From Chamaesiphon minutus PCC 6605 (lineage in GTDB: Bacteria; Cyanobacteriota; Cyanobacteriia; Cyanobacteriales; Chamaesiphonaceae): DNA of 64,000 bases. The position numbers were made by a program, and so were the translations under genes. Below, in pieces: positions 21,168-41,448 of the stretch. The notes beneath the pieces are model-generated. The model did not search any database. It had not been told where the DNA came from and saw nothing but the letters and a program-made list of their open reading frames with translations. The stretch spans positions 3,568,385-3,632,384 of the forward strand of contig NC_019697.1 in NCBI RefSeq assembly GCF_000317145.1, in the 5' to 3' direction. The number at the start of each line of letters is the position of its first letter. Position 1 is the first letter of the stretch.

Positions 21168-21180
21168 TGTGTAAAAACAT

Positions 21181-21308
21181 AATAAAGTCGTATACTGTTA
21201 AAGGCTGAAAACCTTGATTTCTCGTCGCCATTTTTCAATTATTTAGAAATAAAGTTGTATACTTTGATTGCGCTATCTATCCAGATAGAGATAATAAAGT
21301 TGTATACT
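21181..21308 (+). repeat. Left-end TnsB-binding-type repeats (three, widely spaced)
   Basis: AATAAAGTCGTATACT at 21181-21196 and AATAAAGTTGTATACT at 21248-21263 and 21293-21308. Spacings are 67 and 45 bp. Wide spacing at the cargo end matches the asymmetric Tn7 left end. They are exact or near-exact complements of the right-end repeats. Confidence 0.92.
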
Positions 21309-21673: not shown

Positions 21674-22114
21674 ATGCCAGAACCAATTACCACCATGACT
21701 GCTAGCGCGATCGCGTCTCTTGCCTTTCAAGAGTTTGTGAAGTCTGGGACGGGAGAACTCGCGAAGAAGTTTACCGCAGGAGCGATCGTTAAGATGGAAC
21801 AGTTACGAGAACTGATTTGGAAACGTTTGGCTGGGAAGCATCCGGCGGCTGATGCGGCGATCGAAAAGGCTAAGGCTGGAGAACAGGAGGGAATTGACAC
21901 GGTGGCAACGTTTTTAGGTGTCGAACTGTTAGATCGGGAGTTTGCTGGGCAGGTGCAGGCGATCGCTCATGAAATCAATGCTGGGAAATTAGTAGATCGG
22001 AGTTCGATGGTTCAGAACAATTACGATAATGCTAAGGGTTGGCAGACGAAGGTGGAGGGTGGAACAGCTTATATTGGCGAAATTCACATCTTGGAAAAGC
22101 GGTCTGAGCCTTGA
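21674..22114 (+). CDS. Small partner of the STAND ATPase (CAST cargo)
   Basis: 146 residues. The N-terminal part is helical (MTASAIASLAFQEFVKSG, then LAKKFTAGAIVKMEQLRELI). The C-terminal tail has DNAKGWQTKVEGGTAYIGEI. The same tail type (DNATGFQ...STVYAGINHVY) begins the next protein, so the pair shares a motif that probably mediates contact between them. Such N/G-rich DNAxGFQ...VYxG motifs are common in cyanobacterial NACHT/NB-ARC loci. The gene lies 32 bases before the ATPase gene. A role as an effector-associated or adaptor component of a defence or signalling pair is inference. Confidence 0.6.
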   Translation: MPEPITTMTASAIASLAFQEFVKSGTGELAKKFTAGAIVKMEQLRELIWKRLAGKHPAADAAIEKAKAGEQEGIDTVATFLGVELLDREFAGQVQAIAHEINAGKLVDRSSMVQNNYDNAKGWQTKVEGGTAYIGEIHILEKRSEP

Positions 22115-22146
22115 TGGTTATTTAAGGGCGATCGAGAATCTAGGAT

Positions 22147-23919
22147 ATGCAGCAAGACAACCGAGATAATGCAACAGGTTTCCAAATAGATGCAGATAAT
22201 TCAACAGTTTATGCTGGTATAAACCACGTATATCAGTCGTCTCGTCCGCCCAAATGTATTCCTTTTCAGGCGTTGGCGTTGCCAAAGGATTATGTCGATC
22301 GACCAGAAATTCGACAATTAATTAAATCAAAGTCGCTCGATTCACTCCCTTCCAAAGCTGGAATACTGGCGGTAAGTGTAATTTACGGGATGGGTGGAGT
22401 TGGTAAATCAGTAATTGCAGCAGCACTAGCACACGATATTGAGGTGCAAAGTGTTTTTGTTGATGGGGTGCTGTGGGTAACTTTGGGACAAAGCCCAGAT
22501 CTGTTACCGTGCCTGTATGCTTGGGTTCAATCTTTAGGAGACTACGACTTTAAGCCCACAAACATTGATTCTACCTCCTCTCATCTTCGTAGTTTGTTGC
22601 GCGACAAAAAGATCCTACTGGTGGTGGATGATGCCTGGAATAACGATAGTGTAGTTCCTTTTCTGGTAGGCGGTGAAGGATGTCGAGTATTGGTAACAAC
22701 TCGTGAAGCCGATATACTTGATGCTGAACGGATTGAGATGGATGTCATGTCTCAATCAGAGGCTTTAGACCTATTGATGAGTAGGGCAAAAATTCAATCA
22801 TTAGCGGATTTAACGGCTGAAGAGATTAAACAATCACAAAGGTTAATTGATGTCCTTGGTGGCTTGCCATTAGCAGTCGATCTAGCTGGGGCACAGATTG
22901 CTGATGGTATGAGTTGGTCTGAATTATTAGAGGATTTGGAGGCGGAGATTGCCTATCTAGAATCGCTGGATCGACCGAATTTTGGGGGAGAGAGAAATGA
23001 CAAAAATCGAAAGCGATTGAGTTTAAAAGCGTCATTGAATTTGAGCTTGAAGTTATTGACAGCAGAACAGTTACAACAGTTTGCTTGGTTGGGAGTCTTA
23101 CCAGAGGATGTCTCAATTCAGCCAGAAATGGTGGCTACGCTGTGGTATATGCCAATCAAAAAAGCTGGGGCAGTCTTGCGAACTTTTAGAGCGAAAGCTT
23201 TGCTATTATCTGGGGTGGAAGGAGTAAGGAAAGGATCGAGTTATCGAATCCACGACTTAATGCACGATCTGGCAAGGGGTTTACTGACGAGTGCGGGTGA
23301 GAAGGATATTCCAGGTTTAGAGCTGGAATGGAATGACACGCATGGAATTTTGCTCGATCGATATCGTCAGCAAACTACGGAGGGTCAATGGCATACGTTA
23401 CCAGATGATGGATACATTCACGCTCATTTAGCTTGGCATTTAGAAAAGGCAGGCAGATCGGATGAATTACATTTATTGCTACAGAAAGTGACAACAAGGG
23501 GGCGGAATGCTTGGTATGAAGCCTGCCTATCTCTAGGTCAGAATGCAATATTTGTCACCGATCTGGGACGGGCTTGGCAATTAGCCGAAGAAATGTATCA
23601 AAGAGATACCTCACAATCGATCGGTTTACAAGTTAGGTATGCGTTGATTTTTTCTAGCTTAAATAGTTTGGCTGTTAATATTCCTTCTCAATTAATGGCT
23701 GCATTAGTAAAAAAGGAAAAGTGGTCGCCTAACCAAGCGTGGATTTATGCTCGACAATCAATAAAATCACATTCAAATAGTGAGATGATTCGAGATCTGG
23801 CACCCTTTCTACCACCGATGCTGCTTTCAGAGGCATTAGTTATAATGAGTGAATTTCAAGATGATGCTCAAAACCTGAGTTCGATGAGGCTGTGCCTCAT
23901 CATCAAATCAAGTCTCTGA
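22147..23919 (+). CDS. NB-ARC (STAND) ATPase, 3' end cut by a mobile element (CAST cargo)
   Basis: 590 residues as read. P-loop VIYGMGGVGKSVIAAAL near residue 85, Walker B KILLVVDDAWNN near 157, sensor-type VLVTTREAD near 180, GGLPLAVDLAG near 235 and a winged-helix MHD-like segment (YRIHDLMHDLA) near 370. This is the NB-ARC switch module; helical repeats follow. The last residues (SSMRLCLIIKSSL) come from a palindromic IS end at 23875, so the native C-terminus is lost. A likely tail, SDDRTIYSQKFTKISRTKLL, resumes after the insertion at 25213. NB-ARC proteins act in anti-phage defence or signalling; the effector here is not recognisable. Confidence 0.82.
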   Translation: MQQDNRDNATGFQIDADNSTVYAGINHVYQSSRPPKCIPFQALALPKDYVDRPEIRQLIKSKSLDSLPSKAGILAVSVIYGMGGVGKSVIAAALAHDIEVQSVFVDGVLWVTLGQSPDLLPCLYAWVQSLGDYDFKPTNIDSTSSHLRSLLRDKKILLVVDDAWNNDSVVPFLVGGEGCRVLVTTREADILDAERIEMDVMSQSEALDLLMSRAKIQSLADLTAEEIKQSQRLIDVLGGLPLAVDLAGAQIADGMSWSELLEDLEAEIAYLESLDRPNFGGERNDKNRKRLSLKASLNLSLKLLTAEQLQQFAWLGVLPEDVSIQPEMVATLWYMPIKKAGAVLRTFRAKALLLSGVEGVRKGSSYRIHDLMHDLARGLLTSAGEKDIPGLELEWNDTHGILLDRYRQQTTEGQWHTLPDDGYIHAHLAWHLEKAGRSDELHLLLQKVTTRGRNAWYEACLSLGQNAIFVTDLGRAWQLAEEMYQRDTSQSIGLQVRYALIFSSLNSLAVNIPSQLMAALVKKEKWSPNQAWIYARQSIKSHSNSEMIRDLAPFLPPMLLSEALVIMSEFQDDAQNLSSMRLCLIIKSSL

Positions 23920-23960
23920 CTGTGCTTGAGTCATAAACATCAATTATTAAAATGAGATAT

Positions 23961-24007
23961 TTCCAAGTCATTATCAATAAGCTTTGATTATTGATAATGA
24001 CTTGGAA
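23961..24007. repeat. Perfect 20-bp stem, 7-base loop hairpin
   Basis: Arms TTCCAAGTCATTATCAATAA and its exact complement (23988-24007) around the loop GCTTTGA. It lies upstream of the IS982 transposase, within the element, with no T-run after it. It could be part of the element's regulation or a separate insertion footprint. Confidence 0.8.
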
Positions 24008-24166
24008 GTAAAACGTCGATCGATAATTACAAATAATTAACAATTAATAAGTTATTAAAAGTTCTGAGGAGCGGTCGGCAAATAAAAGTACAAATAGCAT
24101 TGCAACCCTTATGTATAATCTCTGATTCTGGTTAAATTAATATATATATTAGAAAACCACACTTAG

Positions 24167-25057
24167 ATGATGGACTTAACCGAACTATTTTGTGAAATAG
24201 ATGATTTCTGCCAAGATTGGCTAGCAACTTTTTCATCAATATCTTTCCCTGCCAACGGTAATAGCTTACCAAAACGCTGCGGCCTATCACTGAGCGAGGT
24301 CATGACTATTTCTATTCATTTCCATCAGTCAAGCTATCGAACATTTAAGGATTATTACCTCAAAAATGTTTGTCAAAACTTAACTGATTATTTTCCAAAG
24401 TTGGTTAGTTACAATAGAATGGTGGAGTTGATGCCAAATGTTTTAATAGCTTGCCTTTATTATCTCAACTCTCGTCAAGGTAAGGTGACTGGAATTAGTT
24501 TCGTGGATAGCACGGCTATTCCAGTTTGTCACCCAAAAAGAATTAAAAGAAATAAGGTTTTCAAAGAAACTGCCAAGCTGAGTAAGAGTTCTATGGGATG
24601 GTACTTTGGATTCAAGCTTCATTTAATTATTAATGATTGCGGAGAGATATTAAGCTGCAAAATCACACCTGGCAATGTCGATGACCGCACACATTTGCCA
24701 TCAATGACACAGGGAATATCAGGAAAAATATTTGGAGACAAAGGATATATTAAGAAAGAACTATTTGAAGAATTATTAAATAAAGGATTGCAGCTAATTA
24801 CGCCACTAAAATCTAATATGAAAAACAAGCTCATCTTGATGGATGACAAAATATCACTTCGGAAACGCTCGCTGATTGAAACGGTAAATGACCAGTTAAA
24901 AAATATTTGTTATTTAGTCCATTCTCGCCATCGGAGCTTGCATAATTTCATGCTAAATCTGATTACAGCATTAATTGCTTATACTCATCAACCTAAAAAG
25001 CCGAGTTTGAAGCTAGATGAGCCTGCTCAAAACTTCTTTAGTATTGTTCCTATTTAG
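24167..25057 (+). CDS. IS982-family transposase
   Basis: 296 residues. IS982 DDE signature: GISFVDSTAIPVCHPKRI near residue 105 (first Asp), KLHLIINDCGEILSCKITPG, IFGDKGYIKKELF near residue 185 (second Asp) and KRSLIETVNDQLKNI near 235 (Glu). The KxHSRHRS-type segment LVHSRHRSLHNF follows. Length is normal for the family and the frame is intact, so the enzyme may be active. It is oriented the same way as the STAND gene it interrupts. Confidence 0.92.
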   Translation: MMDLTELFCEIDDFCQDWLATFSSISFPANGNSLPKRCGLSLSEVMTISIHFHQSSYRTFKDYYLKNVCQNLTDYFPKLVSYNRMVELMPNVLIACLYYLNSRQGKVTGISFVDSTAIPVCHPKRIKRNKVFKETAKLSKSSMGWYFGFKLHLIINDCGEILSCKITPGNVDDRTHLPSMTQGISGKIFGDKGYIKKELFEELLNKGLQLITPLKSNMKNKLILMDDKISLRKRSLIETVNDQLKNICYLVHSRHRSLHNFMLNLITALIAYTHQPKKPSLKLDEPAQNFFSIVPI

Positions 25058-25210
25058 CCGATTATTTATTTATTAACTTAACTCAATATTTTCAATCATT
25101 AATCATCTTAATGATGGGTTTTATCGTGCCAAAATTTACATAAAATTTGCTATTAAGCTGAACATGTTGTCACATCTGAGTTCGATGAGGCTATGCCTCA
25201 TCGAACTCAG

Positions 25211-25284
25211 GTTCCGACGATCGAACCATCTATTCTCAAAAATTCACTAAAATCAGTCGAACTAAACTGCTACAAGCTTTTTGA
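25211..25284 (+). pseudogene. Possible detached 3' end of the STAND gene
   Basis: Directly after the palindromic IS end, the frame SDDRTIYSQKFTKISRTKLL + QAF-stop looks protein-like and lies on the same strand as the NB-ARC gene. Frame restoration could not be shown because no target duplication is evident. Confidence 0.35.
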
Positions 25285-25409: not shown

Positions 25410-26048
25410 TTAGTCAGTCTGAATCTGTGTCCAAGAAAGTGCTGGCGGCTTCCAATCAACAGATTTTATCAATCTATATCGCAACCAGCGAGTGCGTTCA
25501 GATCCTAACCGATCGATCCAATAAGGTAGAGTTATCTCCCCATACTCGTCTTGAGTAAGCCATTTCAAAGCTCCTTGCTGATGCTCATTTGTAAGTAAAT
25601 CGATCGAGTTTACCAAGTCGCGACTCTCACCCAAACAAATATTGCCGAACCTGACGACCGAACTTGGATTGACCATCGCATTATGAAGTCGTTCTGCAAG
25701 ATTGAGGATCGATCGATCTTCTGCTGCATCGATCCAGACAACAAACTTAATCCCAGTTAGGATCTCCTGGTAATCTGGTTTGGAGTTTTTCGATGAATTA
25801 ATATCTCGCTCTTTAAATCTGCGGACTTTCCTAATTACTCTGGATTTAGCCGTTTCCGATAGCATCGCGATCGCTAATTTCACACCACAATGCCTGAACC
25901 TATTCTCTTCGCCAACTGTCGATAACAACATACCATAAACAGTTGAAGGTGGTGGTACTGGATAAGTCGCAATGTATTCTCTCGCTCTGGAATCCCGAAA
26001 ACAGGCAATCGGGACTTCTACTTGCAAGGCAATTTTATTAATTGTCAT
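25410..26048 (-). CDS. cas5: Cas5 (type I-B/DevS-like) of the CAST
   Basis: 212 residues. Starts with the Cas5 ferredoxin-fold strand IALQVEVPIACFRDSRAREY, then the glycine/proline motif YPVPPPSTVYGMLLSTVGEE near residue 35, both standard for Cas5. The middle has VVWIDAAEDRSILNLAERL and SSVVRFGNICLGESRDLV. Cas5 caps the 5' handle of the crRNA in the Cascade complex. It is the last cas gene, 7 bases after cas7, and its frame is intact. No array follows that I can recognise. Confidence 0.85.
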   Translation of the reverse strand: MTINKIALQVEVPIACFRDSRAREYIATYPVPPPSTVYGMLLSTVGEENRFRHCGVKLAIAMLSETAKSRVIRKVRRFKERDINSSKNSKPDYQEILTGIKFVVWIDAAEDRSILNLAERLHNAMVNPSSVVRFGNICLGESRDLVNSIDLLTNEHQQGALKWLTQDEYGEITLPYWIDRLGSERTRWLRYRLIKSVDWKPPALSWTQIQTD

Positions 26049-26459
26049 TAGCTAATCACTTTTGCTTTGCCTCTAGTTCCAAATCCCTTGTTATTACCTC
26101 TTTTAAAGCATTAATGGCTGACAAACTACCAGGGAAAAGATGTGCGCCAAGCCCCTCTAATCCCTGAGATAGTTGACCACCAATCCAGAGTTCTTTTGGA
26201 TTAATATCTCCAGATTCCACTCTGTAAATTAGATCGGGTAACGATAGCTGCTCTTGTTCATCTTGCTCGAAACAGTATAGAAGTCGAGGGTTCAAATCTT
26301 TAGTCCAGCGCAGCACGATATTCGTGGGCGCAAAATCAAACAGAAATCTTCCATGATTTCCAGCCACTTTATCAATACCGACTAAACCATCTAAAACATC
26401 CAGAGTGCGAGATTTGTCTCGCAGATACTCAGGGGATAGACAAAAGCCATACTGATAGT

Positions 26460-27943
26460 CATTCGTGACAAGTTAAGAAAATCAGAGATTTGTCAAAAGG
26501 GTAATAAAAAGATGCCAAACTGTTTCTAGTCAAGAGTTTGAGGGAATAGAGGCCTGATGACCAGCCGCCGAAGAAGTAACCGCGACCACGCCAAAAAGAA
26601 CCACCAACCAGGTGTGGAAGATGAGATCATCGCCGCTCAAGTAGAGGCTTTATTGACACCAGCAATTTTCAATCAAAGTCATTACTACCGACAATTAGGG
26701 CTGAGAAATCGGCTGTTAAATTTACCCTTGATGATGGCAGCAGTGCTGACGCTACTGTGGCGGAATGTGCCAGGAGTCAGAGAACTAAGCCGAATGTTAG
26801 GGCGAGAAGGATTTTTGTGGTGTGAGCCAACACAAGTAAGTCAACAGGCGATTGCACAAAGATTTCTGACCTTTCCATCTGAGTTATTTGAGAGAGTGTT
26901 TAAGGAATTACTGCCAGAATTTAGAGTGAAGTGGCACCAGAGAAAACAGCGATTGTTGCCACAAAGCATTGAATTTGCTCAAGCAAAATTTGAGCGGATT
27001 TGGGCATGTGATGGCTCCACATTGGAAGCGATATTCAAGAAATTAGATAGCTTATCTGATGTGCCAATCGGACAACTAGCGGGAAAAATGGGAGTAGTCA
27101 TAGATTTGGTGACGAGATTGCCGATTGAAATCTGGTTTAGAGAAAATCCCAAAGCTTCAGATGTTAATTTTGAGAAAGATATCCTGAATTTAGTAACATC
27201 GGGCACTTTATTGCTCTTGGATCGAGGCTTCTATCATTTCCAATTTTGGCAAGAATTAATTAACAGAGATATTCATTTTATTACTCGATTAAAAAAAGGT
27301 GCATCGCTACAGATAGAGCGAGTATTTAGCAATAGTTATAGTATCCGTGACCGAATAGTGCGGATGGGGTCTGGCACCAAAAAGACTCCATATATAACTG
27401 TAAGATTAGTCGAAATTAAAGTGGGTAAAGTCTGGTATTCTTATCTAACTAGTGTACTCGACCCATTGAATCTTCCTCCCTATGTAGTCGCCGATTTGTA
27501 CGGAAGACGGTGGCGAATTGAAGAGGCTTTTAATACTGTTAAACGATTGCTCGGGTTGAGTTATTTATGGACTGGTTCAGTTAATGGAATTAAATTACAG
27601 ATGTGGGGGACTTGGCTGTTTTATGCAGTTCTAGTCGATTTAGGTGATGCTGTAGCTGATGAATTATCTCTCCCATTCGACCGCATTTCTTTAGAGATGA
27701 TTTATCGAGGTCTTTATCACTTTCATGTAGCTCATCATAAAGGTTTAGCTGCCAATCCAGTCACCTATTTTGCTGCCCCAGAGAATCAAGATTTAGGTAT
27801 TGTTAAAACTGTTCGTAAACCTAATGTTAAGTTAATTATTGCACCTTTTCCTGATTCTATGAGTCGAACAGACAATTTTTTCTTCGACTCATCGCCTCAA
27901 GCCCGCTTGACAAGTGCGATCGCTTCTTAACTTGTCACTAATG
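26460..27943 (+). mobile_element. IS4-family element inside cas7
   Basis: 1484 bp. Ends CATTCGTGACAAGTTAAG (26460) and complement CATTAGTGACAAGTTAAG (to 27943), 17 of 18 matching. Direct 9-bp duplication ACTGATAGT at 26451-26459 and 27944-27952. The intact duplication indicates a fairly recent, simple insertion. Confidence 0.93.
26557..27930 (+). CDS. IS4-family transposase
   Basis: 457 residues with an intact frame. First Asp in WACDGSTLEAIFKKL near residue 150, second in LLLLDRGFYHFQFW near 222, and the IS4 signature Y-x2-R-x3-E-x6-K in YGRRWRIEEAFNTVK near 315, followed by LLGLSYLWTGS. It is oriented opposite to the cas genes. The N-terminus is rich in Arg and His and probably binds DNA ends. 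Confidence 0.92.
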   Translation: MTSRRRSNRDHAKKNHQPGVEDEIIAAQVEALLTPAIFNQSHYYRQLGLRNRLLNLPLMMAAVLTLLWRNVPGVRELSRMLGREGFLWCEPTQVSQQAIAQRFLTFPSELFERVFKELLPEFRVKWHQRKQRLLPQSIEFAQAKFERIWACDGSTLEAIFKKLDSLSDVPIGQLAGKMGVVIDLVTRLPIEIWFRENPKASDVNFEKDILNLVTSGTLLLLDRGFYHFQFWQELINRDIHFITRLKKGASLQIERVFSNSYSIRDRIVRMGSGTKKTPYITVRLVEIKVGKVWYSYLTSVLDPLNLPPYVVADLYGRRWRIEEAFNTVKRLLGLSYLWTGSVNGIKLQMWGTWLFYAVLVDLGDAVADELSLPFDRISLEMIYRGLYHFHVAHHKGLAANPVTYFAAPENQDLGIVKTVRKPNVKLIIAPFPDSMSRTDNFFFDSSPQARLTSAIAS

Positions 27944-29228
27944 ACTGATAGTATGTCGCATGTCGTTCTGTGGCATGGAGGGAATTGCGGTCTTTTACAC
28001 CACTTCTAGCACTAAAAGTAACATCGCCGTGGAATGGTCGAGTAGAGACAGCCGGAGTAACATCAAGTGCCCCACGCCGTTTAACCGCTGTGCCTTTAGG
28101 TTTTGGCTTGCCTTTCGCTCGACCTTTGGCTGGAATTGGTGGTACTTCGGGATCTTCCTCCGCATCATCTATTTTTGCGGCTTCTGCGTGCATAAAGCCC
28201 AGAATATCGTCATCAAGATATTTATCTGGATCGAAATTAGGATCTTCCCATGTGGACTCTAGTATGAGCGGATTCCAGACCCGATTTACTGGCAATCCTT
28301 GTCGTTGCCAAGTGTAGCGTAATGACCAGCGAATAGCCTCAGCCGAGACTGTAGTGTGAGTTTCTCCGTGCCACAGAAGCTTTTGTAACTTGGAGATGTT
28401 TCCTTCATTTTCTCCACGATTATTAGCGGCAACACCATACGCAGTCAAAATATTACCAAAAAGATTAAACATGTCGAACCTCCGGTTCTGTAATGGCTGT
28501 TGATGGATCTTCGGCTGGAAGTTTATCAGGATCTGGAAGTTTCTCTTCCCCTTTGTAGCTAGCCAGTGCCAGGAAAAACAGACTTTTTGCCATCTTCCAG
28601 TCACTTTGTCCAGTTGTCAACGGTAATAGTTTTTGCCAAGATTCTTGCAAAACTTGGATGTTTCCAGCATTTCCCCAAAACGAGGTGATAAAGTCTCGAA
28701 ACGCTGAGGCATTTTGACATCGCTCCAAATTCGATCTCAGTTGGATGACTTTCCGCTCAAATTGCGGATAATCACCCTCTTTTGTTTTCCCGCCAATTTT
28801 GCCAAAAGTTATCCTCAAACCTTGGTGACAAGCTCTAACAAATAGTTCTTGTGACTCAGTATCCCATTCAGTTTTTTTCACCATATCATGTATTCGATCT
28901 TGACGAAATTTAATAGCTAAATATGCTTTTTTATGAATAAAAACATCCGTAAATCCCCACCACCAAGGTTTTCCTCGAATGAGATTTTCTGCAATAAACT
29001 GGGAAAGGGGATCGTCTTGTCTCGATTCCCCACAGAATGTCTGATAAAGCTCCAAATGTTGAGTCTCGATCTCGATCGTTTCGGCTGCTAGACGAGTTTG
29101 CTGCTGTTTTGACCAAGTAACTTTACCAAAAGGAATTACTAGGCATCTGTGAATATCAGCTTGAGACTGCTGATTAACCACAGTTGTTTTTAGTAAGAAT
29201 TTTAGTGCTGCGTCAGACCAGCCGTTAG

Positions 29229-30653
29229 CAGCAATTCCAAATTCAGATTTTGACAACTTGGTAGGGTGAGCAGGAGAATAGAGAGACTTCAAAAAGAGAA
29301 GCAGAATGGAGCCAATGAAGCTGAGTTTTGGGGTATTGATAGTCTATCTGAACCGAGCAATTCTTCAGATGAAAGATCCGCGCCTTGCCAGCAATGGCAC
29401 TAAATACACCATCAGAGATGCTGTGTTGGGAGCATTTTCGATGTTTTTCATGCAAAGCGAATCCTTTTTAGAACATCAGCGGCACATGAATAGCAATCAG
29501 GGCAAAAGCAATGCTCAGACACTGTTTGGCATGATTAAAATCCCAACAGTGCCGCAAATTCGGAATATCCTGGATGAAATTTCAGCCACAGCACTATTTG
29601 GAGTATTCAATCACGTCTATCAGTCTTTAAGACGAGAAGGTCACTTGAAACCGTTTGAATATCTCGGTGGATTACTAGTTGCGCTGGATGGAACTCAGTA
29701 TTTTGACTCGCACAAACTCAACTGTAAATGCTGTTCGAGCCGTACCCACAAAAATGGCACAGTAACTTACTTCCACAGTGCCATTTTGCCTGTAATAGTT
29801 GCGCCTGGGCAATCTCAAGTAATTTCCTTAGCTCCAGAATTCATCACACCTCAAGATGGTCACCAGAAGCAGGACTGCGAAGTGGCAGCAGCTAAACGAT
29901 GGCTCAAAACTCATGCCCCAGAATTCCAAGGACAAGCAATCACTCTACTCGGAGATGACCTCTACAGTCACCAACCAATGTGTGAACAGGTGATAGCGTC
30001 GGGAATGAACTTTATCTTTACCTGTTTAGAAACGTCTCATACTGCTGTTTATGATTGGTTGAAATACTTGGATGGTATTGGCGAGGTGAAAAAGCTAGAA
30101 GTGAAACAGTGGAACAGCAATTCAAGCGAATTATATAGCTATCAATATGTGAATGGAATTCCTCTAAGGGACTCCCAGCCAGCAATGAAGGTCAATTGGT
30201 GTAAACTAATCCATACCCGCCAATCAGATGGAGAAATATTATATGAAAATTCATTTATTACCCGCCATGAATTAAACGAACAGAGCGTACCTCTGGTTGC
30301 TGCGGCTGGTCGATGTCGTTGGAAGACCGAAAATGAAAATCATAATGTGCTCAAAACAAAGGGATATCATCTGGAGCATAACTTTGGGCATGGTCAGCAG
30401 CATTTAGCTGCTTGTTTATTGACGCTGAACCTGTTGGCATTCCTTTTTCACACTGTTTTGCATTTAACAGATCTTGCATATGGACAGATTCGTCTCAAGC
30501 GTGTTACTCGTAAAGGCTTTTTTCAAGATATCCTCAGTCTTACCAAATATTTACTCTTTGAGAGTTGGCCTTCTTTGATTGATTTCATGCTTTACGGCTC
30601 GGCTTCCACTCTGGTCGCCAACTCTTCCTAGATTTTTGAATTTGGAATTGCTG
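29229..30653 (+). mobile_element. ISNCY-like element inside cas8
   Basis: 1425 bp. Terminal inverted repeat CAGCAATTCCAAATTC, perfect over 16 bp, at 29229 and (complement) ending at 30653. The flanking 7-bp duplication CCGTTAG / CCGTGAG has one mismatch, so it may be older than the IS4 insertion. Confidence 0.85.
29306..30631 (+). CDS. Transposase, ISNCY-like DDE type
   Basis: 441 residues, intact frame. Likely catalytic acids lie in LLVALDGTQYFDSHKL near residue 125 (followed by the CKCCSSRTHKNGTVTYFH segment typical of this group), ITLLGDDLYSHQPMCE near 215 and RCRWKTENENHNVLKTKGY near 345. The last resembles the E of a DDE triad within an IE/TE-N-H-N motif. The C-terminal half ends with hydrophobic helices (LAACLLTLNLLAFLFHTVL). 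I assign it to the unclassified ISNCY group by these motifs; a remote IS4/IS1202-type relationship is possible. Confidence 0.75.
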   Translation: MEPMKLSFGVLIVYLNRAILQMKDPRLASNGTKYTIRDAVLGAFSMFFMQSESFLEHQRHMNSNQGKSNAQTLFGMIKIPTVPQIRNILDEISATALFGVFNHVYQSLRREGHLKPFEYLGGLLVALDGTQYFDSHKLNCKCCSSRTHKNGTVTYFHSAILPVIVAPGQSQVISLAPEFITPQDGHQKQDCEVAAAKRWLKTHAPEFQGQAITLLGDDLYSHQPMCEQVIASGMNFIFTCLETSHTAVYDWLKYLDGIGEVKKLEVKQWNSNSSELYSYQYVNGIPLRDSQPAMKVNWCKLIHTRQSDGEILYENSFITRHELNEQSVPLVAAAGRCRWKTENENHNVLKTKGYHLEHNFGHGQQHLAACLLTLNLLAFLFHTVLHLTDLAYGQIRLKRVTRKGFFQDILSLTKYLLFESWPSLIDFMLYGSASTLVANSS

Positions 30654-30776
30654 CCGTGAGGTGGTTGGAGTTTAAGATATTCGAGATATTTTAATTGGAC
30701 GAATAAACCCGCTACTCCTGCACGGTGGAGAAAGGTCATACTCGGATCGCGAATATCTAGGTGAATTTTGGCCATC

Positions 30777-31433
30777 TCAGGGAGTAAATAAGCCACAACC
30801 CATCTTCCGCCTTCCCCCAATACCTTGCTGTTGTAGCATTAGTGAATCTAGATCGCTAAGTCCCTCGACTCTAACTCCAAAGCCAACTACTTTCTTCTTG
30901 TTAATTTTGACGGTTCGACATCTCGGTTGACCATCAGAGCGAGTTAAAACCCGAACTTTACCAACAATCTCCAATCGATCGAGATGGTTCTGTGCGGCTG
31001 TGTCTAATGTACTTGCATCTAAAAAACCTTTGATCGTGACAATTCGAGCCTCTAAATTCTGAGACGGCACAATTAATTCCAATTCAGGAATGCCGAGATA
31101 GATTTTGTCTTGATGAATTTGAAGAGTCTTTCCTGCTAATTTGTAGATCGATCGAGACAGATCCAGCGGTAGTCGAATCTTCAATACAGAATCAACATCG
31201 ATGTTTAATCGTTTGGAGTAAGCCCCACTGAGCTTTCCATTAATCCCAAAGATACCAATCGAGTTGGACTCATGAAATTCTGGAATTATCTGGGAAATAC
31301 CGCCATACAAAGGATGTGCGTGATCTACCCCGATCGATTGCCCCTCAACCGGAAATAAATAATCACCGAATTCCTCGCTACAGGATCGGCAACAATCTCG
31401 CTCTTCTGAAGTGCGATCGGGGAGAATAGTCAT
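30777..31433 (-). CDS. cas6: Cas6 crRNA endoribonuclease of the CAST
   Basis: 218 residues. The C-terminus carries the Cas6 glycine-rich loop GIGGRRKMGCGLFTP, and the upstream KKKVVGFGVRVEGLSDLDSL leads into it. The N-terminal ferredoxin fold contains EGQSIGVDHAHPLYGGISQI and LLLP-type strands (VLKIRLPLDLSRSIYKLAGK). Cas6 cuts the pre-crRNA at the repeat hairpin. It is the first cas gene, 111 bases after tniQ, and its frame is intact. The likely catalytic histidine is in VDHAHPLYGG, by family position. Confidence 0.85.
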   Translation of the reverse strand: MTILPDRTSEERDCCRSCSEEFGDYLFPVEGQSIGVDHAHPLYGGISQIIPEFHESNSIGIFGINGKLSGAYSKRLNIDVDSVLKIRLPLDLSRSIYKLAGKTLQIHQDKIYLGIPELELIVPSQNLEARIVTIKGFLDASTLDTAAQNHLDRLEIVGKVRVLTRSDGQPRCRTVKINKKKVVGFGVRVEGLSDLDSLMLQQQGIGGRRKMGCGLFTP

Positions 31434-31544: not shown

Positions 31545-32504
31545 CTAATGTGACATCACAAAATCAGTAATTGAGCCAAAAAGATATCTGATAATTAAAA
31601 TATGCGCTACTCGATCGATCTTTGGATCTAAATCTCCTGCGAACAAGCAATGAATGAGGTACTTACCCTCAGTGTCTACAAAACGAGGCTCAATCCAGTT
31701 CAAAGATTCCTCATCATAAAAATCACGGAAAGATTGGAAAAGCTCCCGTTCATCAAATTTAAACTCTCCCCTGAGTAGTTTTTTGACCGATCCTCGTTTG
31801 CACAATTGAGCAATATATCGATCTCGCAACCACCCCATCCCACGGAAATCAATTCTCGTATCTACTAGCCAGACTAGATCGGTTGCTATCTCAAGTAGAT
31901 GTTTGAGACTGTCTGGAGCAAGCTCTGACTGCTCCATATCAACAATGCAATTTTCATCGCTAGCGGCATGATAGTGAACACCATGACTATCTATCAGCAC
32001 ACTACTGTCGAGCAGCAAAATCCGATGTTGAGTGCAGATTACCAATCCTGGAATCTGATGAAGGCGATGCCAGTATGGTTCTCCGTATTGTTCAATTTCT
32101 GTTGTTAAACACAGAGGGCAGAATTTTAAGTATTTCCGGCGATCGCTAGTACTATCTAAATCAACTCTAGCCTGTTCTAAGATTGAGCCACTGCGTTTCT
32201 CGATCGTTGCCGATCCTAATTTTCTTATCTCGATCGGGCTTAGAAAGGCAGCATAAAATGGATATAGAGTATTATGCTCCATTAACGATCTCACTCTATA
32301 GTCCGAGATATGAGCTATTTGTTTGACCAAACCCTTCAAGTTATTAGTCAGCGTGACTCGACAAGCTTGCTGAGAAGAGTAACCAAATAAATCTAAATCG
32401 GTTTGTCGAAAGCTCTGATTGCCACTGCGAATATGATATCTAGCCAATCCACTATATAAGAGTTCATCAGGGTAGAGGCGAGGAAAAGAAGCGAGGGCAC
32501 ACAT
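31545..32504 (-). CDS. tniQ: TniQ/TnsD-family targeting protein (short form)
   Basis: 319 residues. N-terminal TniQ motif FPRLYPDELLYSGLARYHIR + SGNQSF, followed by the zinc-binding stretch KFCPLCLTTEIEQYGEPYW and HRLHQIPGLVICTQHRILLL (CxxC...CxxH). It ends soon after VAHILIIRYLFGSITDF, where longer TnsD proteins carry a DNA-binding second half. It is thus either a Cascade-linked TniQ or a shortened TnsD. It is the only TniQ-family gene in the element, although the insertion lies at the glmS attachment site usually recognised by full TnsD. Starts 10 bases after tnsC. Confidence 0.88.
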   Translation of the reverse strand: MCALASFPRLYPDELLYSGLARYHIRSGNQSFRQTDLDLFGYSSQQACRVTLTNNLKGLVKQIAHISDYRVRSLMEHNTLYPFYAAFLSPIEIRKLGSATIEKRSGSILEQARVDLDSTSDRRKYLKFCPLCLTTEIEQYGEPYWHRLHQIPGLVICTQHRILLLDSSVLIDSHGVHYHAASDENCIVDMEQSELAPDSLKHLLEIATDLVWLVDTRIDFRGMGWLRDRYIAQLCKRGSVKKLLRGEFKFDERELFQSFRDFYDEESLNWIEPRFVDTEGKYLIHCLFAGDLDPKIDRVAHILIIRYLFGSITDFVMSH

Positions 32505-32514: not shown

Positions 32515-34194
32515 TCAGTTGATGTACTCGGCTACTGGATCGCAAATCAGTCCTACCGATTTGATGTCTTCATATGCAGATGTGTTACTATCGATCGCTT
32601 TTGCAACAATTTGACGTAGATCATCTTTTTGATAAGCGGGTTCTACCTTTTTCTTCTTTGGTTGAGGTTGTTGTTTGACTAATGCTGAAGTATGTCCAGT
32701 AGATCCTACCAAAGAAAGTTTATAAGCTTGTTTGACCAGAACACTAATATCTGCTTCAGCTTTATTATTCGTTATTACCTGCTCTGCACATTCTTTTGCT
32801 ACATGAGGAGAGACATCTAATTCGAGTAATTCTGCAATTGTCGCTCTTAACAGATTAGAATCAATTTTATGATCCTGTAGCTGTTTATTTTTTCTCAGTG
32901 TTAATTCATGGAGTTTCTTCAGACATTTCTGCTCATATGCCAAAATGTCTAGTGGTGCAATATCTTTGTACCGTAACATTTCCTCCTTATCATTATTCCT
33001 TATCGCTGCTAGCATTGGCTTCAACAAGTGTAATCCGTCATTTGCGACTTGCCTAATCAAATCTACAGAAATAGCTTCATCACCATCTAAAGCAATACTT
33101 CGACATTGAACCATTCTAAATAATTTAATTGCAATATCAATTATACCTTGAGTTTCATCATAGAAAGCTTCTTCTAGTGCCGTCGATAGCTCTACCTTCT
33201 TTCTTGTCCATTGATATTTCCATAAGTTTTCAACAAATAAGTCCCATTCATCATCATCTTTCTGCATTCGATCCCAAATGACGCTACCTTCGCCTGTGCC
33301 TCTTCTAGCATTACGAAAATTACCCTGAAAGATCGGTAATGCCTCATTCGTTCCAACTTTAATGACTGGTACACCGATGATGTTATCCATCTTAACGAGG
33401 AAGTTTAATAAGTCATCCTTCCGTCTACGTGCATTTACTAGATTTTGCATTTCATCAATGACTAGCACTCCCAAGTGATGAGTGTTAGCAAGCTGTGCAA
33501 CTTGAGCTAGCATCAAGTCTTCTGTATGATTACGGGAACTGAATTTTGTATGATAAGTTGTACCCAAGAGTTTATCTATTGCCATAAATATATCAGTACA
33601 CAATCCCTTCAACGAACCAGCGTGAGGACAATCAACTTTTAGCCATACTATTTGATATGTACTTAATTTAGGATGAAAAATAACTTGATCGTAAAGTGAA
33701 AGTATTTTATGTAAGTTAGTTGATTTCCCCATGCCAGATGGCCCAATTAATGTCAACCCTGATGCAGAAGTTGGCTGACTGACATACCTTTCTAGTTCTC
33801 TACCACTAGAATTCTCAATCGCTCCATAAATTTGTCGAGATCTTAATGCAAAAGTAGGCTTTAATGGATTACGGGCGAGGTAGCCTCTTTTTATTAAAAT
33901 GCTGATATTATTATTCAGCTCGATCGTTTTACCCTGGGGATCGAAGTAGCTTGACAGTCTAGCAACGCAATGAAATCGCTCTGATTTATTTAGACAAACT
34001 TCATCATCATTATATTCAGGTTCTTCATAGACAAGATCTATGAATTCTTCGTTATCGAATGTGGGTGGTAGTGCCTGAATTAATAAATTTTCATTATATT
34101 CTCTCAACTTTTGATCGATATATATAGCTTCAACACCCATATGTTTTCGATCGATATTTTGAGGAATTGTTATTTTGTCATCAGTTTTTTCCAC
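32515..34194 (-). CDS. tnsC: TnsC, AAA+ transposition regulator
   Basis: 559 residues. Walker A GPSGMGKSTNLHKIL near residue 152, Walker B LGVLVIDEMQNLVNARRRK near 240, then a sensor-type VIKVGTNEA near 280. TnsC is the ATPase that links target recognition (TniQ/TnsD) to the TnsA/TnsB transposase and confers target immunity. The N-terminus has an extension with acidic motif YEEPEYNDDE that may contact TnsB or TniQ. The start overlaps the end of tnsB by 14 bases, so translation is coupled. Confidence 0.93.
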   Translation of the reverse strand: MEKTDDKITIPQNIDRKHMGVEAIYIDQKLREYNENLLIQALPPTFDNEEFIDLVYEEPEYNDDEVCLNKSERFHCVARLSSYFDPQGKTIELNNNISILIKRGYLARNPLKPTFALRSRQIYGAIENSSGRELERYVSQPTSASGLTLIGPSGMGKSTNLHKILSLYDQVIFHPKLSTYQIVWLKVDCPHAGSLKGLCTDIFMAIDKLLGTTYHTKFSSRNHTEDLMLAQVAQLANTHHLGVLVIDEMQNLVNARRRKDDLLNFLVKMDNIIGVPVIKVGTNEALPIFQGNFRNARRGTGEGSVIWDRMQKDDDEWDLFVENLWKYQWTRKKVELSTALEEAFYDETQGIIDIAIKLFRMVQCRSIALDGDEAISVDLIRQVANDGLHLLKPMLAAIRNNDKEEMLRYKDIAPLDILAYEQKCLKKLHELTLRKNKQLQDHKIDSNLLRATIAELLELDVSPHVAKECAEQVITNNKAEADISVLVKQAYKLSLVGSTGHTSALVKQQPQPKKKKVEPAYQKDDLRQIVAKAIDSNTSAYEDIKSVGLICDPVAEYIN

Positions 34195-36427
34195 GTTTAT
34201 TCTTCTCTCTTTTTGCTCTTAGTAAATCAGTGTAGTTAGGTTTCAAGGATGGTTGCGGTGAAATTGAGCTAGATTTGTCTGGGTCTGTCTTCGATAAAAT
34301 TTTACTACTGTCTTTTTCTTTAGGTGATAAGTCGAACGATTCTTCTTCACGGCGATTTTCTTTTTCAATACTTCTATTATCTCGAATTGCAGAAGTTCTT
34401 GCCAGTTTACTCATGGTAGGATCTTGAACAGCATTAGTCATATCAACTGCTCGATCGACAATCTTTTCAATTTCCTTATTCAAATCTATTGTTTGAGGTA
34501 GCTCACGATTGGCACTCTTTTGCCGTTGTAATTCCTCTTCAGCAAACAAGTACCCAACATCATAGAAGTTATGACTTTTATATTTCGAGTCTGGAGCGAT
34601 TAGAATACATTGTGTAAAACTACGACCATCTTGCGCTGGGATATAAATATAATCAGTTTTTCGCGGATCGTAGGAAACTTCTAGTTTTTTTTCTGCTCTA
34701 GATAGAGATCCAGCTCTAGCATTAGACAGCCACATCTCTTTATCTGCTCGATCGCAAGTATAGTAAATACCTTTGAATTTAATTCCTTTCTCCGTGATGG
34801 TAGCATTTCCCCTCGGCATTAAATTGAGTTTAATAATATCGGGATCTAAAGTTCTAAGCCTACCTGAGCAATGGATAATTCCCCATTTCCATAATTGGGC
34901 AGGAATAGGTAACACTTCATCTGCGATCATTTCTACTGTTCTTGGATAATCCTTCAGCATATGTTGGTTATTATGATGCAGAATCATCCGAATGATAATT
35001 TGAGTGAATTGATCTAGATCGAGCTTACTGTCTAACCGATAATCACGGCCACCTCTTTGATTGAAGTCTATATCAACGGCTCCGGGTATAAAAGGTTTTA
35101 CTTTTTCATTGATAATCCGAAAGCGTCTCTCTACAATACCTTTCCAATCTGGTCTGAATGGTGCTGCATTTTCAATCTTAATATTCAGATTTTGAGTTAC
35201 TATATTTGCATTTTTGCTAATTAATTCACCACGATCTCCTAAAATAGCATCTGGCAAATGATGACAGGGCCAGTCATCTTCCGAAATATCGATTCCATAC
35301 TGTCGGCAGTATTCAACCTTATCCATAGCCATATTAGCTAGAGCCATCATCATCCCCAACCAAGATGGCCCCTCTAGTCCAACATAGACTCCAGTAATCA
35401 TCCGACTAAAAACATCAATCACAACATAAATTACTGGTCTGCCAATAATCCATTTGCGGTTGTAACTGGAGACGAGGTAGACATCTCCCACTGTTGCATC
35501 TACTTGATAACGAGAACCAGGCCCAGTCACCTCTGCGGTTGAATTACCTGTGATCGGACGGTAATTTTGCAAATATTCTCTCTTTCCAATCCTTGTGCTT
35601 ATCTTTTTCTCTACATTTTGACCATGCTCCAAATCATACCAATACTTAAATTGTACTAACGAGGGTATTCGATCTTGCATAGCAATCGAACCATGCAAGT
35701 CATCATAATTAGACAAGTCCTCTTCAGAATAGTATTCTTGGATCATTTTTTCATACGCTGCTACCAACGATCTTTTTTCAGATGTATGATAAAACTGAGA
35801 AATTGCCACTCGAAAGGTCATTTTTGTCTCTTCTGTGACATTAACCCCAATCCCTATTTCAGGATCGTTAGCATATTTTCTAGGTCTGCCCCTTTTTACA
35901 TCTCCTGCTAACTTCTGCTTACCTTTTCCTCCCGAATTTTTATAATCCGGTAACAGTGCATTAATATTTTTACCTCTTTGCCAGTATCTCTTAAGATATT
36001 TGTAAACAGTCTTTTTAGTTAATTTACCCTCGACTTCACTTGAGCTTCTAGTTGTATTGTGATCTTCTATTAATTTGAGTACTAGAGATCCACGTTGATT
36101 TCGCTCGTATATGGGTGGTTCCTGAGTAACGATAGATGAAATGATTCTCCAAGCAGCGTCTCTTAGTATTTTATCCTTGGATGATAATTCTTCTTCTAAT
36201 ACTATCAAAACCCAAGGATCTTTTTTGATTATGATCGCAGCACTCGATTTAATACATGCTTCTATTTCATTGATAAATACTTGTCTAGGAAGTGATTTTT
36301 CTTCATAGATATTAATCAAAAATGCAACCTCATAACCTTCGTCAATCCATAGTATTCGATCGATCTGATTCTTTCCGTCTTCAGAGATCCACTCAACTAA
36401 GTTATTGACAAATAGATGAACTTGCAT
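34181..36427 (-). CDS. tnsB: TnsB, DDE transposase
   Basis: 748 residues. An N-terminal helix-turn-helix region (TKKTVYKYLKRYWQRGKN near residue 140) binds end repeats. The retroviral-integrase-type core has Asp in YQVDATVGD near 305, Asp in AILGDRGEL near 390 and Glu in DWKGIVERRF near 435. A Mu-type C-terminal beta barrel follows. The last ~60 residues (PKEKDSSKILSKTDPDKSS then KPNYTDLLRAKREKNKRGKN) form the charged tail that recruits TnsC in the family. Its frame is intact; it starts 22 bases after tnsA. TnsB cuts and joins the 3' ends and should bind the repeats at both ends. Confidence 0.95.
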   Translation of the reverse strand: MQVHLFVNNLVEWISEDGKNQIDRILWIDEGYEVAFLINIYEEKSLPRQVFINEIEACIKSSAAIIIKKDPWVLIVLEEELSSKDKILRDAAWRIISSIVTQEPPIYERNQRGSLVLKLIEDHNTTRSSSEVEGKLTKKTVYKYLKRYWQRGKNINALLPDYKNSGGKGKQKLAGDVKRGRPRKYANDPEIGIGVNVTEETKMTFRVAISQFYHTSEKRSLVAAYEKMIQEYYSEEDLSNYDDLHGSIAMQDRIPSLVQFKYWYDLEHGQNVEKKISTRIGKREYLQNYRPITGNSTAEVTGPGSRYQVDATVGDVYLVSSYNRKWIIGRPVIYVVIDVFSRMITGVYVGLEGPSWLGMMMALANMAMDKVEYCRQYGIDISEDDWPCHHLPDAILGDRGELISKNANIVTQNLNIKIENAAPFRPDWKGIVERRFRIINEKVKPFIPGAVDIDFNQRGGRDYRLDSKLDLDQFTQIIIRMILHHNNQHMLKDYPRTVEMIADEVLPIPAQLWKWGIIHCSGRLRTLDPDIIKLNLMPRGNATITEKGIKFKGIYYTCDRADKEMWLSNARAGSLSRAEKKLEVSYDPRKTDYIYIPAQDGRSFTQCILIAPDSKYKSHNFYDVGYLFAEEELQRQKSANRELPQTIDLNKEIEKIVDRAVDMTNAVQDPTMSKLARTSAIRDNRSIEKENRREEESFDLSPKEKDSSKILSKTDPDKSSSISPQPSLKPNYTDLLRAKREKNKRGKN

Positions 36428-36449: not shown

Positions 36450-37262
36450 TTAGTTGAATTTGAGATCTTTTGTTGGGAAAAAAGTAAGTGATTTCTCCGT
36501 TAGCATGTCAACTGAGATCAATTTATTTGCCACAAGATACTTAAATAGGTAAAGTGATGTACCTAGCCCAACATTCATTTCTATATCCAAGTCATTAACA
36601 ACTTTACCGACAGTAGTAGTATCTGTTTCTAGCTTCGATCTCAAAATTTTGATTATGTGATGAAGCTCTTCTTTATTAGCCTCTTTATTTCCTTCTAGTT
36701 TGTGGGATGAATGAATCCATTCAACATTTTTTATCATTAACTTGGGAATATCTTTTTCCGTGACTATTTTCCAGTCGATCTCTTTAATGGCATAGTAACG
36801 CCTTTCTAGTTCTAGTTTCATTGCTGTCCGCTTATTATTTAAACTCTTGGAAGGTTTAAACGTTCTTGCCTCATAAGTATTTTTCCCTTTATGAGTAACG
36901 GTCAACATGAAATCTGTGCTCAGGACATAAGGGGCACCACTTTTGGGATCTTTAGGGTATTCAACTCCCATGTCTTCTGCAATCTTGAAGCACAACTCTC
37001 GATCGAGTAATGGAAATTGCTCTCGAATATCAACAATCCGATCTGACCACTCGAATAAATAGAACAGTCTTGTCTCACCATCGGACATGAAATGATGCTC
37101 TCGACTAGTCTTCCAGCCTAAAACTCTTGATACACGTCCACTGGAAGAAAAATCTGAAACTTTGATCCATGGATTGTAGTCTCGACCGATACCATGTCCT
37201 CGACCTTCCTTCATATATCGGTCGAGTTTCTCTTCTGTCCAGTCTCTTTTGCTTCTGACCAT
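36450..37262 (-). CDS. tnsA: TnsA endonuclease
   Basis: About 270 residues from ATG at 37262 (MVRSKRDWTEEK); an upstream in-frame ATG at 37277 adds five residues. TnsA-type core: LFYLFEWSDRIVDIREQFPL near residue 65 (first acidic residue), YVLSTDFMLTVT near 110 (Asp) and EARTFKPSKSLNNKRT (lysine), then LELERRYYAIKEIDWKIVTE. TnsA has a restriction-enzyme fold and cuts the 5' ends, enabling cut-and-paste movement. The presence of separate tnsA and tnsB distinguishes this element from type V-K CASTs. Its start lies only 42 bases from the right-end repeats. Confidence 0.92.
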   Translation of the reverse strand: MVRSKRDWTEEKLDRYMKEGRGHGIGRDYNPWIKVSDFSSSGRVSRVLGWKTSREHHFMSDGETRLFYLFEWSDRIVDIREQFPLLDRELCFKIAEDMGVEYPKDPKSGAPYVLSTDFMLTVTHKGKNTYEARTFKPSKSLNNKRTAMKLELERRYYAIKEIDWKIVTEKDIPKLMIKNVEWIHSSHKLEGNKEANKEELHHIIKILRSKLETDTTTVGKVVNDLDIEMNVGLGTSLYLFKYLVANKLISVDMLTEKSLTFFPTKDLKFN

Positions 37263-37303: not shown

Positions 37304-37360
37304 AGTATACAACTTTATTAGTCAGTATACAACTTTATTATTTAGTATACGACTTTATTG
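37304..37360 (-). repeat. Right-end TnsB-binding-type repeats (three, 20-bp period)
   Basis: AGTATACAACTTTATTA at 37304-37320 and 37324-37340, and AGTATACGACTTTATTG at 37344-37360: three 17-mers exactly 20 bp apart. Dense packing at the glmS-proximal end matches the Tn7 right end. Confidence 0.93.
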
Positions 37361-37370
37361 TGTTATCACA

Positions 37371-37394: not shown

Positions 37395-39269
37395 TTATTC
37401 AACAGTTACCGACTTGGCCAGGTTGCGAGGCTGATCTACATCTAATCCGCGCATTGCGGCAATATGATATGACATCAATTGCATCGGAATAACCGTCAAA
37501 ACAGGCGATAACAATTCATCCACATCAGGTACGGGTAAAACCTTATCAAAAATCTCTGCTGCATCCTTGTCGCTAGCCGCAACTACCCCATACAAATGCG
37601 AATCTCGCGCCTTGGCTTCTTGAGCGTTAGAAACCGCTTTCTCATATACTTTCCCTGGCATCGTAATCGCAATTACGGGTACCTTAGCATCGAGTAATGC
37701 GATCGGGCCGTGTTTCATCTCGCCAGAGGGATAACCTTCGGCATGGATATAACTGATCTCTTTTAATTTTAAAGCACCTTCTAGGGCGATCGGGAAGTTG
37801 ATGCCGCGACCGAGGAAGATCGCATCGTGAGTATCTAGGAAGCTATGGGAGAGTTCTTGGATATATTTTTCTTGGGTTTCGAGAATGACTTCGATTTGGG
37901 AGGGGAGGACTTTTAATCCGGTAATAATTTCGGATAGTCGATCGACTGTAATAGTCCCGCGACGATGGGCTAGGTCGAGCGAAAGGAAGTAGAATGCCAT
38001 CAACTGCCCCATGAAGGTTTTGGTGGCGGCTACGCCGATTTCCATGCCTGCGTGGGTGTCGATTACACAGTCTACGACGCGGGTAATTGCACTGTCTGTC
38101 CGATTGGTGACGGCGAGGAGGCGGGAATGATATTTGGGTGCTTTATCTTTGCGGCGCGACTGTTCGATTTCGACTGCGGCGAGGGTATCGGCGGTTTCAC
38201 CAGATTGGGTAATCCCGATGGTGAGGGTGTTGGGTGTCAGGGGTGGGGGAGAATAGCGAAATTCGGACGCATATTGAATTGCGGTGGGAAGTTGGGCGAG
38301 TTCTTCGAGTAAATATTTACCGATCATTCCGGCGTGGAGGCTAGTTCCACAGGCAACGATTTGGATATTTTCGAGATCTTTATAGATAGATTCGGGTAAG
38401 TCGAGTTTGAAGGGGGATTTGTTGCTACTAGGAGTCCAATCGAGATCCAGATAGGCTTCGAGACAGGTGCGCACGACGGCGGGTTGTTCGTAGATTTCCT
38501 TAGCCATAAAGTGGCGGAAACCTTGTTTTTCAACAGCGATCGGATTCCAGGTAATAGAATGAGGCGTGCGGCGGACTTTGGCACCATCAAAGGTATATAC
38601 TTCGACCCCATCTCTGGTCAGTCTGGCCATTTCCCCATTTTCTAGGGGTAAAATCGTGCGAGTATATTGGACGATCGCGGGTGTATCGGAAGCACAAAAA
38701 TACTCACCTTCACCGATACCGATAATCAACGGTGCTTGTTGTCTGGCAATTACCATTTCGTCAGGATAGTCTGCCGAAATTACCGCGATCGCAAATGCGC
38801 CAGATAATTTATGAACGGCTTGTTGGACTGCTAACATTAATGTTTCGGCACCGTCTTCAAAACATTGGCAAATCAGGTGGGGAATGACTTCGGTGTCGGT
38901 TTCCGATCGAAATTCATGCCCTTGTTTTTTTAATTCTTCGCGCAGTTCGCGGTAGTTTTCAATAATTCCATTTTGCACTACCGCCAACCGTCGCTTGGTA
39001 TCGGTATGGGGGTGAGCGTTATATTCTTCTGGCTTGCCATGCGTCGCCCAGCGCGTATGTCCGATGCCAATGGGGGCAAGATTGCTAGCTACTTCGATTT
39101 TTTCGCGCAGGTTGTGCAGCTTACCTTTAGCACGAATGCAGTCTAAATTACCTTCAACAACGGTTGCTACTCCAGCAGAATCGTAACCTCTGTACTCTAG
39201 TTTTTCTAATCCTGAAACTAGAATGGATTGGGCTGGTTTATTGCCAATATAGCCAACAATTCCACACAT
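37395..39269 (-). CDS. glmS: Glucosamine-6-phosphate synthase (isomerizing)
   Basis: 624 residues. Makes glucosamine-6-phosphate from fructose-6-phosphate and glutamine for peptidoglycan. N-terminal glutaminase: catalytic Cys2 in MCGIVGYIG, IGHTRWATHG near residue 70, SETDTEVIPH near 120. Two sugar-isomerase domains follow: VACGTSLHAGMIGKYLLE near 310, GITQSGETADTLAA near 355, and AEGYPSGEMKHGPIALLD near 510. The C-terminus DVDQPRNLAKSVTVE is the conserved end whose DNA is the TnsD target in Tn7 systems. It is convergent with gltB across the CAST. Confidence 0.97.
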   Translation of the reverse strand: MCGIVGYIGNKPAQSILVSGLEKLEYRGYDSAGVATVVEGNLDCIRAKGKLHNLREKIEVASNLAPIGIGHTRWATHGKPEEYNAHPHTDTKRRLAVVQNGIIENYRELREELKKQGHEFRSETDTEVIPHLICQCFEDGAETLMLAVQQAVHKLSGAFAIAVISADYPDEMVIARQQAPLIIGIGEGEYFCASDTPAIVQYTRTILPLENGEMARLTRDGVEVYTFDGAKVRRTPHSITWNPIAVEKQGFRHFMAKEIYEQPAVVRTCLEAYLDLDWTPSSNKSPFKLDLPESIYKDLENIQIVACGTSLHAGMIGKYLLEELAQLPTAIQYASEFRYSPPPLTPNTLTIGITQSGETADTLAAVEIEQSRRKDKAPKYHSRLLAVTNRTDSAITRVVDCVIDTHAGMEIGVAATKTFMGQLMAFYFLSLDLAHRRGTITVDRLSEIITGLKVLPSQIEVILETQEKYIQELSHSFLDTHDAIFLGRGINFPIALEGALKLKEISYIHAEGYPSGEMKHGPIALLDAKVPVIAITMPGKVYEKAVSNAQEAKARDSHLYGVVAASDKDAAEIFDKVLPVPDVDELLSPVLTVIPMQLMSYHIAAMRGLDVDQPRNLAKSVTVE

Positions 39270-39413
39270 AAAGTCTAATTCTCCCGCAACGGTTATCTAT
39301 AGATTCGGTGTACGTATAGCAGTCTCTCTACTGTTGAGACTGGTTCCACTTTACTATTATAGTTACCCGATTTTCGATCGAATGTAACAAGGTGGGCAGA
39401 AATCTTTTGGATT

Positions 39414-39450
39414 GTGGATTGTGGATTGCGGATTGTGGATTTTAATTCCT
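39414..39450. repeat. Heptamer-type tandem repeat (GTGGATT)
   Basis: Four to five copies of the 7-mer GGATTGT/GATTGTG in a row upstream of glmS, with one substituted unit (GATTGCG). Confidence 0.65.
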
Positions 39451-39486
39451 TCGCTTCCCTATTGCCTATTTCCTATCCTCTTTCCC

Positions 39487-40858: not shown

Positions 40859-40925
40859 CCTCTTTCCCCCTTTCCCCTTTCCCCTTTCTCCTAAAGCCTA
40901 AAGCCTAAAGCCTATCCCCCTAGTG
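40859..40925. repeat. C/T and CTAAAGC heptamer repeats
   Basis: CCCTTT units run into three CTAAAGC heptamers (40890-40916). Related GGCTTTAG/GGTTTTAG heptamers occur near 41804 and at 62140-62195. Confidence 0.7.
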
Positions 40926-40979
40926 ACTAGTGACCAAAGGCACCACAACGAACCCTCAGTCTCCAGTCACTATCGGGAA

Positions 40980-41273
<294 letters not shown>

Positions 41274-41448
41274 TCAAGGCTTAGTTTACCGCAGCCACAG
41301 AGGCTAGTTCTCAAAAAGGCTACATAAGTTAAAGGTTTTTAACTTTTGGCTGCTTGGCGGTTGGTTGCACGGGAGTTATTATGGGCGATCGGTTAAGTTC
41401 GCTTGAGATAGTTTAAAATTAGAGTCTCAAGCTCATTATGGAGATCTA

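Follow-up and report, generated by a model that had tools for sequence, protein, structure and literature searches.

Decay of a glmS-linked type I-B1 CAST has very probably left a lone short TniQ in Chamaesiphon minutus PCC 6605

Beside the glmS gene of Chamaesiphon minutus PCC 6605, in a stretch of 64,000 nucleotides that was analysed as a whole (hereafter the window), lies a Tn7-like element that extends from a left end at approximately 21170 to a right end at 37370 (Table 1). With its right end at glmS, it carries separate tnsA and tnsB genes, tnsC, tniQ and type I-B-like cas6, cas8, cas7 and cas5 genes, as expected of a type I-B1 CAST. Among the further parts of a complete I-B1 CAST, neither a long TnsD nor a guide matching the attachment site is present in the window element, nor are a CRISPR array and an intact set of Cascade genes. 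Its tniQ is the only full-length TniQ/TnsD-type gene both in the element and in the 6.76-Mb genome. The initial annotation of this DNA had described a single short TniQ-family protein at a glmS insertion, and this description holds, as the open reading frame is intact and the right-end terminus lies 24 nt past the glmS stop codon. Two other TniQ remnants are found elsewhere in the genome: a 145-aa TniQ behind pieces of a TnsC-like gene (L002, C1:1195828) and a 60-aa stub (L003, C1:1465139), which we take to resemble the TniQ of type V-K CASTs.

Table 1. Features of the glmS-linked element, with coordinates in the window
Feature	Position	Strand	Remarks
Left end	21170..21308	+	terminus TGTAAAAACAT; exact, widely spaced TnsB-like sites at 21181, 21248, 21293
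Cargo, 146-aa protein	21674..22114	+	no family found
Cargo, NB-ARC (STAND NTPase) gene	22147..23872	+	cut off by IS
IS (DDE_Tnp_1_3), 1340 bp	23873..25212	+	no target duplication; lies where the array starts in relatives; proposed deletion junction
cas5	25410..26048	-	212 aa, intact
cas7, 3' part	26065..26457	-	
IS (DDE_Tnp_1)	26460..27943	+	interrupts cas7; flanked by 9-bp direct repeats ACTGATAGT, by eye
cas7, 5' part	27945..28511	-	
cas8, C-terminal remnant	28465..29259	-	residues 225-488
IS replacing cas8 codons 46-224	29228..30654	+	ends by eye from inverted repeats
cas8, N-terminal remnant	30647..30778	-	residues 2-45 of MAG Cas8
cas6	30777..31433	-	218 aa, intact
tniQ	31545..32504	-	319 aa; ATG at 32504, stop at 31545
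tnsC, AAA+ ATPase	32515..34194	-	559 aa
tnsB, transposase (Mu-transpos_C)	34181..36427	-	748 aa, separate from tnsA
tnsA, endonuclease	36450..37262	-	270 aa
Right end	37304..37370	-	terminus TGTGATAACAC; exact TnsB-like sites at 37304, 37324, 37344, 20 bp apart
glmS, host attachment gene	37395..39269	-	

A 16-bp TnsB-like motif, AATAAAGTYGTATACT, is present in three exact copies at each end of the element. The distance between the right-end terminus and glmS is that of the group: of 16 other cyanobacterial elements or remnants, 15 have a TGT terminus 20–26 nt past the glmS stop codon, and such a constant insertion point shortly behind glmS is the expected product of a TnsD-type selector. The exception is L109 (G569), where the apparent right-end terminus is only ~5 nt past the stop, through a deletion or a different insertion. 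Short tnsA-like and right-end-like traces just past glmS in two genomes without an element (L060 in G391 and L061 in G392) suggest that the site has been used repeatedly. A 5-bp target duplication joining the two element ends was sought and is not present (TGGTG versus GTGTT, plus strand); a rearrangement of the left-end flank is the probable reason. The gene order relative to gltB differs from that of the relative G388, and the block from glmS to a hydrolase gene (window 20843–21170 and 39269–43502) is opposite with respect to gltB when compared with G388; the rearrangement is probably an inversion with a breakpoint near the left end. In the cargo next to this end, the 146-aa protein and the start of the NB-ARC protein have a short motif in common (NNYDNAKGWQ and NRDNATGFQI, respectively), and PADLOC gives no match for the pair (window 21674–23872).

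The TniQ protein of the window combines a Pfam TniQ domain (residues 7–164, E 1.1e-28), including an invariant CCCH zinc motif (C129, C132, C157 and H160), with a partial TnsD domain in which residues 206–316 align with positions 1–106 of the 355-position profile, below the cut-off. The same architecture is seen in L046, L005 and L109. The initial annotation had remarked that the protein stops where longer TnsD proteins continue, which the short profile match and the alignment both confirm, glmS-homing TnsDs (~500–640 aa) having a full TnsD domain and a C-terminal extension, with ~300 residues that the window protein does not have. As judged by sequence comparison, the length of 319 aa is native rather than the result of a chance truncation: the orthologue in a Chamaesiphon MAG is also 319 aa long, and all but two of the short relatives measure 313–319 aa. 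The AlphaFold model (mean pLDDT 86.5) has its best structural match in residues 1–318 of Tn7 TnsD bound to TnsC (TM 0.77). I-B1 TniQ derives from a truncated TnsD (PMC11406308), and this closest match, together with the distance from the TniQ of type I-B2 CASTs discussed below, agrees with such an origin.

What kind of TniQ is it? Its position between tnsC and cas6 is that expected of an I-B1 TniQ, and the PADLOC model TniQ_IB matches it end to end (residues 6–317, E 2.7e-108). Placement in a TniQ/TnsD tree, a check proposed in the initial annotation, puts it among the short proteins: in a maximum-likelihood tree of 34 N-terminal regions, which does not include the AvCAST reference proteins, a 100/100 branch splits 16 short TniQs from 18 long TnsDs, and the nearest neighbour of the window protein is the TniQ of the Chamaesiphon MAG. 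On the grounds of gene order, model match and tree branch, the protein is best classed as the crRNA-linked TniQ of a type I-B1 (AvCAST-like) CAST.

It is very unlikely that this short protein recognises glmS alone and is itself the homing protein of the element, as the initial annotation had allowed. Admittedly, the element sits at the canonical glmS point and encodes no other TniQ-family protein, and three other glmS-linked elements have a short TniQ only. However, the close homologues of the protein are clearly crRNA-linked TniQs, an outcome that the initial annotation had named as refuting, and in the tree it falls with TniQs whose elements also encode a separate TnsD. CAST TniQs consist of a ~300-aa core, and it is to the C-terminal extensions of TnsDs that target recognition is ascribed (PMC10293859); this part of the glmS-homing proteins is absent here. 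In Tn7, TnsD fragments from 1–350 to 1–498 fail to bind attTn7, residues 1–309 still bind TnsC, and a stop at residue 305, 306 or 340 has a dominant-negative effect (PMC2918618). By analogy, the window protein corresponds to the TnsC-binding part of Tn7 TnsD and, being shorter than truncations that lose attTn7 binding, would not be expected to find glmS.

Intact relatives indicate where a TnsD would have been. In Nostoc calcicola the order is glmS-tnsA-tnsB-tnsC-TniQ (315 aa)-cas6-cas8-cas7-cas5-CRISPR array-TnsD (635 aa). Eight further complete elements are arranged alike: where the window has its 319-aa protein they have a short TniQ, and their long TnsD comes last, beyond cas5 and the array. 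The closest counterpart of the window element is the orthologous element of the Chamaesiphon MAG, whose TniQ is 91% identical to that of the window at a dN/dS of 0.15 (0.09–0.13 for the other element genes), values that reflect the whole period since the two elements diverged and are no gauge of present TniQ use. The tnsC gene of the window is likewise orthologous to those of the MAG (L004, 84%) and N. calcicola (L005, 56%). The MAG encodes a TnsD of 627 aa on the same contig, 13.6 kb past cas5; this gene adjoins remnants of a second element and might belong to it, and the left end of the MAG element was sought and not found. In the stretch after the MAG tnsD (L047 11965–12800), a piece of cas5, a single CRISPR repeat, TnsB sites like those of a right end and a tnsA start follow each other in direct order; this remnant of a second I-B1 element suggests tandem or successive insertions at glmS. 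Homologues of HmaA, HmaB and HmaC (the Hma defence set) lie between array and tnsD in the MAG (L004 17072–20602, L047 674–7469).

The Cascade genes of the window element are in decay. Compared with the MAG, cas8 is short of ~574 bp and an insertion sequence (IS) sits at the gap, while the IS in cas7 is a simple insertion. The homology with the MAG ends at 25213, exactly at the edge of a further IS (23873–25212) and 54 bp before the first CRISPR repeat of the MAG; on the other side of this IS lies the truncated NB-ARC cargo gene. A perfect 5–6-bp target duplication flanks 13 of the 14 other complete copies of the IS in the genome, whereas the window copy has none. The stop of homology at the IS edge and the missing target duplication make an IS-adjacent deletion likely.

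No TnsD was found in searches of the window and of the whole genome, and no fragment of tnsD survives, so the second TnsD in trans that the initial annotation had wanted looked for did not turn up. Sub-threshold matches to PF15978 elsewhere in the genome cover short parts of the profile at no better than E 0.002; we treated them as noise, since sub-cut-off matches of the same family also occur in 12 of 14 control genomes. Could the element instead have arrived without a tnsD of its own, the TnsD of a second element in the same cell having directed it to glmS? In related genomes, this site does bear traces of several Tn7-like elements, including the tandem remnant of the MAG, and glmS-homing TnsDs could in principle work in trans. 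Nevertheless, this is improbable: all complete I-B1 relatives whose glmS locus was examined have a TnsD gene of their own, and nine other genomic copies are 100% identical over their full length to the IS at the break, an identity that suggests a recent event in this lineage, later than the arrival.

A CRISPR array was not detected in the window by repeat search or by best-match scoring against shuffles, and the repeat of the MAG array has no match in the genome even when 3 mismatches are allowed. Nor does the genome contain an intact Cas8 of this type, which is present as two fragments only. These absences bear on the reading that TnsD had become dispensable through homing by a crRNA against the attachment gene, the situation in the I-B1 subgroup that targets comM. 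Some I-B1 CASTs are documented to have made this switch (PMC11406308), but we give it next to no credence here, where array and repeat are absent from element and genome, cas7 and cas8 are broken with no other Cas8 of the type to replace them, and the arrays of 12 relatives hold no glmS-like spacer. Two I-B1 elements with TniQ, Cascade and array and without glmS beside tnsA (L106 in G508 and L107 in G410) are possible members of the guide-homing subgroup; the one in G508 has its cas genes in inverse orientation to tniQ, and that genome also encodes a ~350-aa C-terminal piece of a TnsD on another contig.

We estimate at roughly 93% the probability that the element is a decayed I-B1 CAST in which the crRNA-linked TniQ remains after arrival by the TnsD route and subsequent loss of tnsD and array. 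The initial annotation had given loss of the homing protein after arrival as its second option, and the 627-aa TnsD of the MAG, the far-end tnsD of the intact relatives and the duplication-free IS at the break all favour it. In an intact system, the long TnsD reads the 3' end of glmS and places the element some 20–26 bp beyond the stop codon, and the short TniQ bridges the Cascade-crRNA complex to TnsC for RNA-guided jumps. From its position and its relatives, the window element would have reached glmS by the TnsD route and then decayed in place: insertion sequences would have broken cas7 and cas8, and the IS-adjacent deletion would have removed the CRISPR array and everything up to the cargo gene, very probably including tnsD, which in the relatives lies in the corresponding segment. 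TniQ would thus be left without either partner, and an element in this state should be immobile by any known targeted pathway; we therefore expect it to be inactive now.

How common are glmS elements without TnsD? Among 14 scored glmS-linked elements with tniQ, a set without G436, whose contig breaks off within tnsD, 10 have a TnsD and four do not (the window element and those of G531, G143 and G056). All four of the latter, versus one of the 10 with TnsD, have broken or missing Cascade genes (one-sided Fisher p ~0.005, calculated by hand, for small sets whose lineages are not fully independent), which speaks for decay and against specialisation of the short protein for homing. The elements in G143 (L021), G056 (L023) and G531 (L104) each have a short TniQ with Cascade broken or missing, and no TnsD was found in these three genomes. 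The G143 TniQ has been shortened to 280 aa, and a transposase gene follows it closely; the G531 element lies on a short contig and has kept its array. If the four elements kept tnsABC and tniQ working, with TniQ directed by a partner in trans, the orphan TniQ state would be a working lifestyle and not simple decay, a prospect that we regard as highly improbable.

The window element belongs to a known family and has decayed to a fossil; it does not represent a new mode of homing. The two-selector rule of I-B CASTs thereby loses an apparent exception, the short protein being a leftover and not a replacement for TnsD. The gene order also offers a reason why TniQ outlives TnsD, as tniQ lies next to tnsABC on the glmS-proximal side, and it is from the opposite end that IS insertions and deletions strip tnsD and the array. 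Surveys count elements with a TniQ too short for target selection and no partner (PMC10293859), and such surveys should allow for decayed fossils like the one described here.

Comparison with known systems places the element more precisely. The TniQ of a type I-B2 CAST (PDB 8fcu), a type with fused TnsAB and a tRNA-homing TnsD (PMC11406308), is structurally far from the window TniQ model (TM 0.38), although the two are predicted to have the same functional role as adaptor between Cascade and TnsC. Residues 1–318 of Tn7 TnsD (PDB 8glu, 8glw) have the fold, the CCCH zinc motif and the TnsC-binding part in common with the window protein, which naturally ends where the full-length TnsD of 507 aa extends into its attTn7-binding region. 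The I-B1 CAST of N. calcicola FACHB-3891 keeps a CRISPR array and its TnsD downstream of cas5, which the window element does not, and has the same order from glmS through cas5. Finally, whereas AvCAST (type I-B1, Tn7743) is complete and active (PMC11406308) and the window copy has lost tnsD and array and has broken cas7 and cas8 genes, the two are alike, by description rather than by sequence, in having a short TniQ whose TnsD domain is partial, next to a type I-B Cascade, and an attachment site at glmS.
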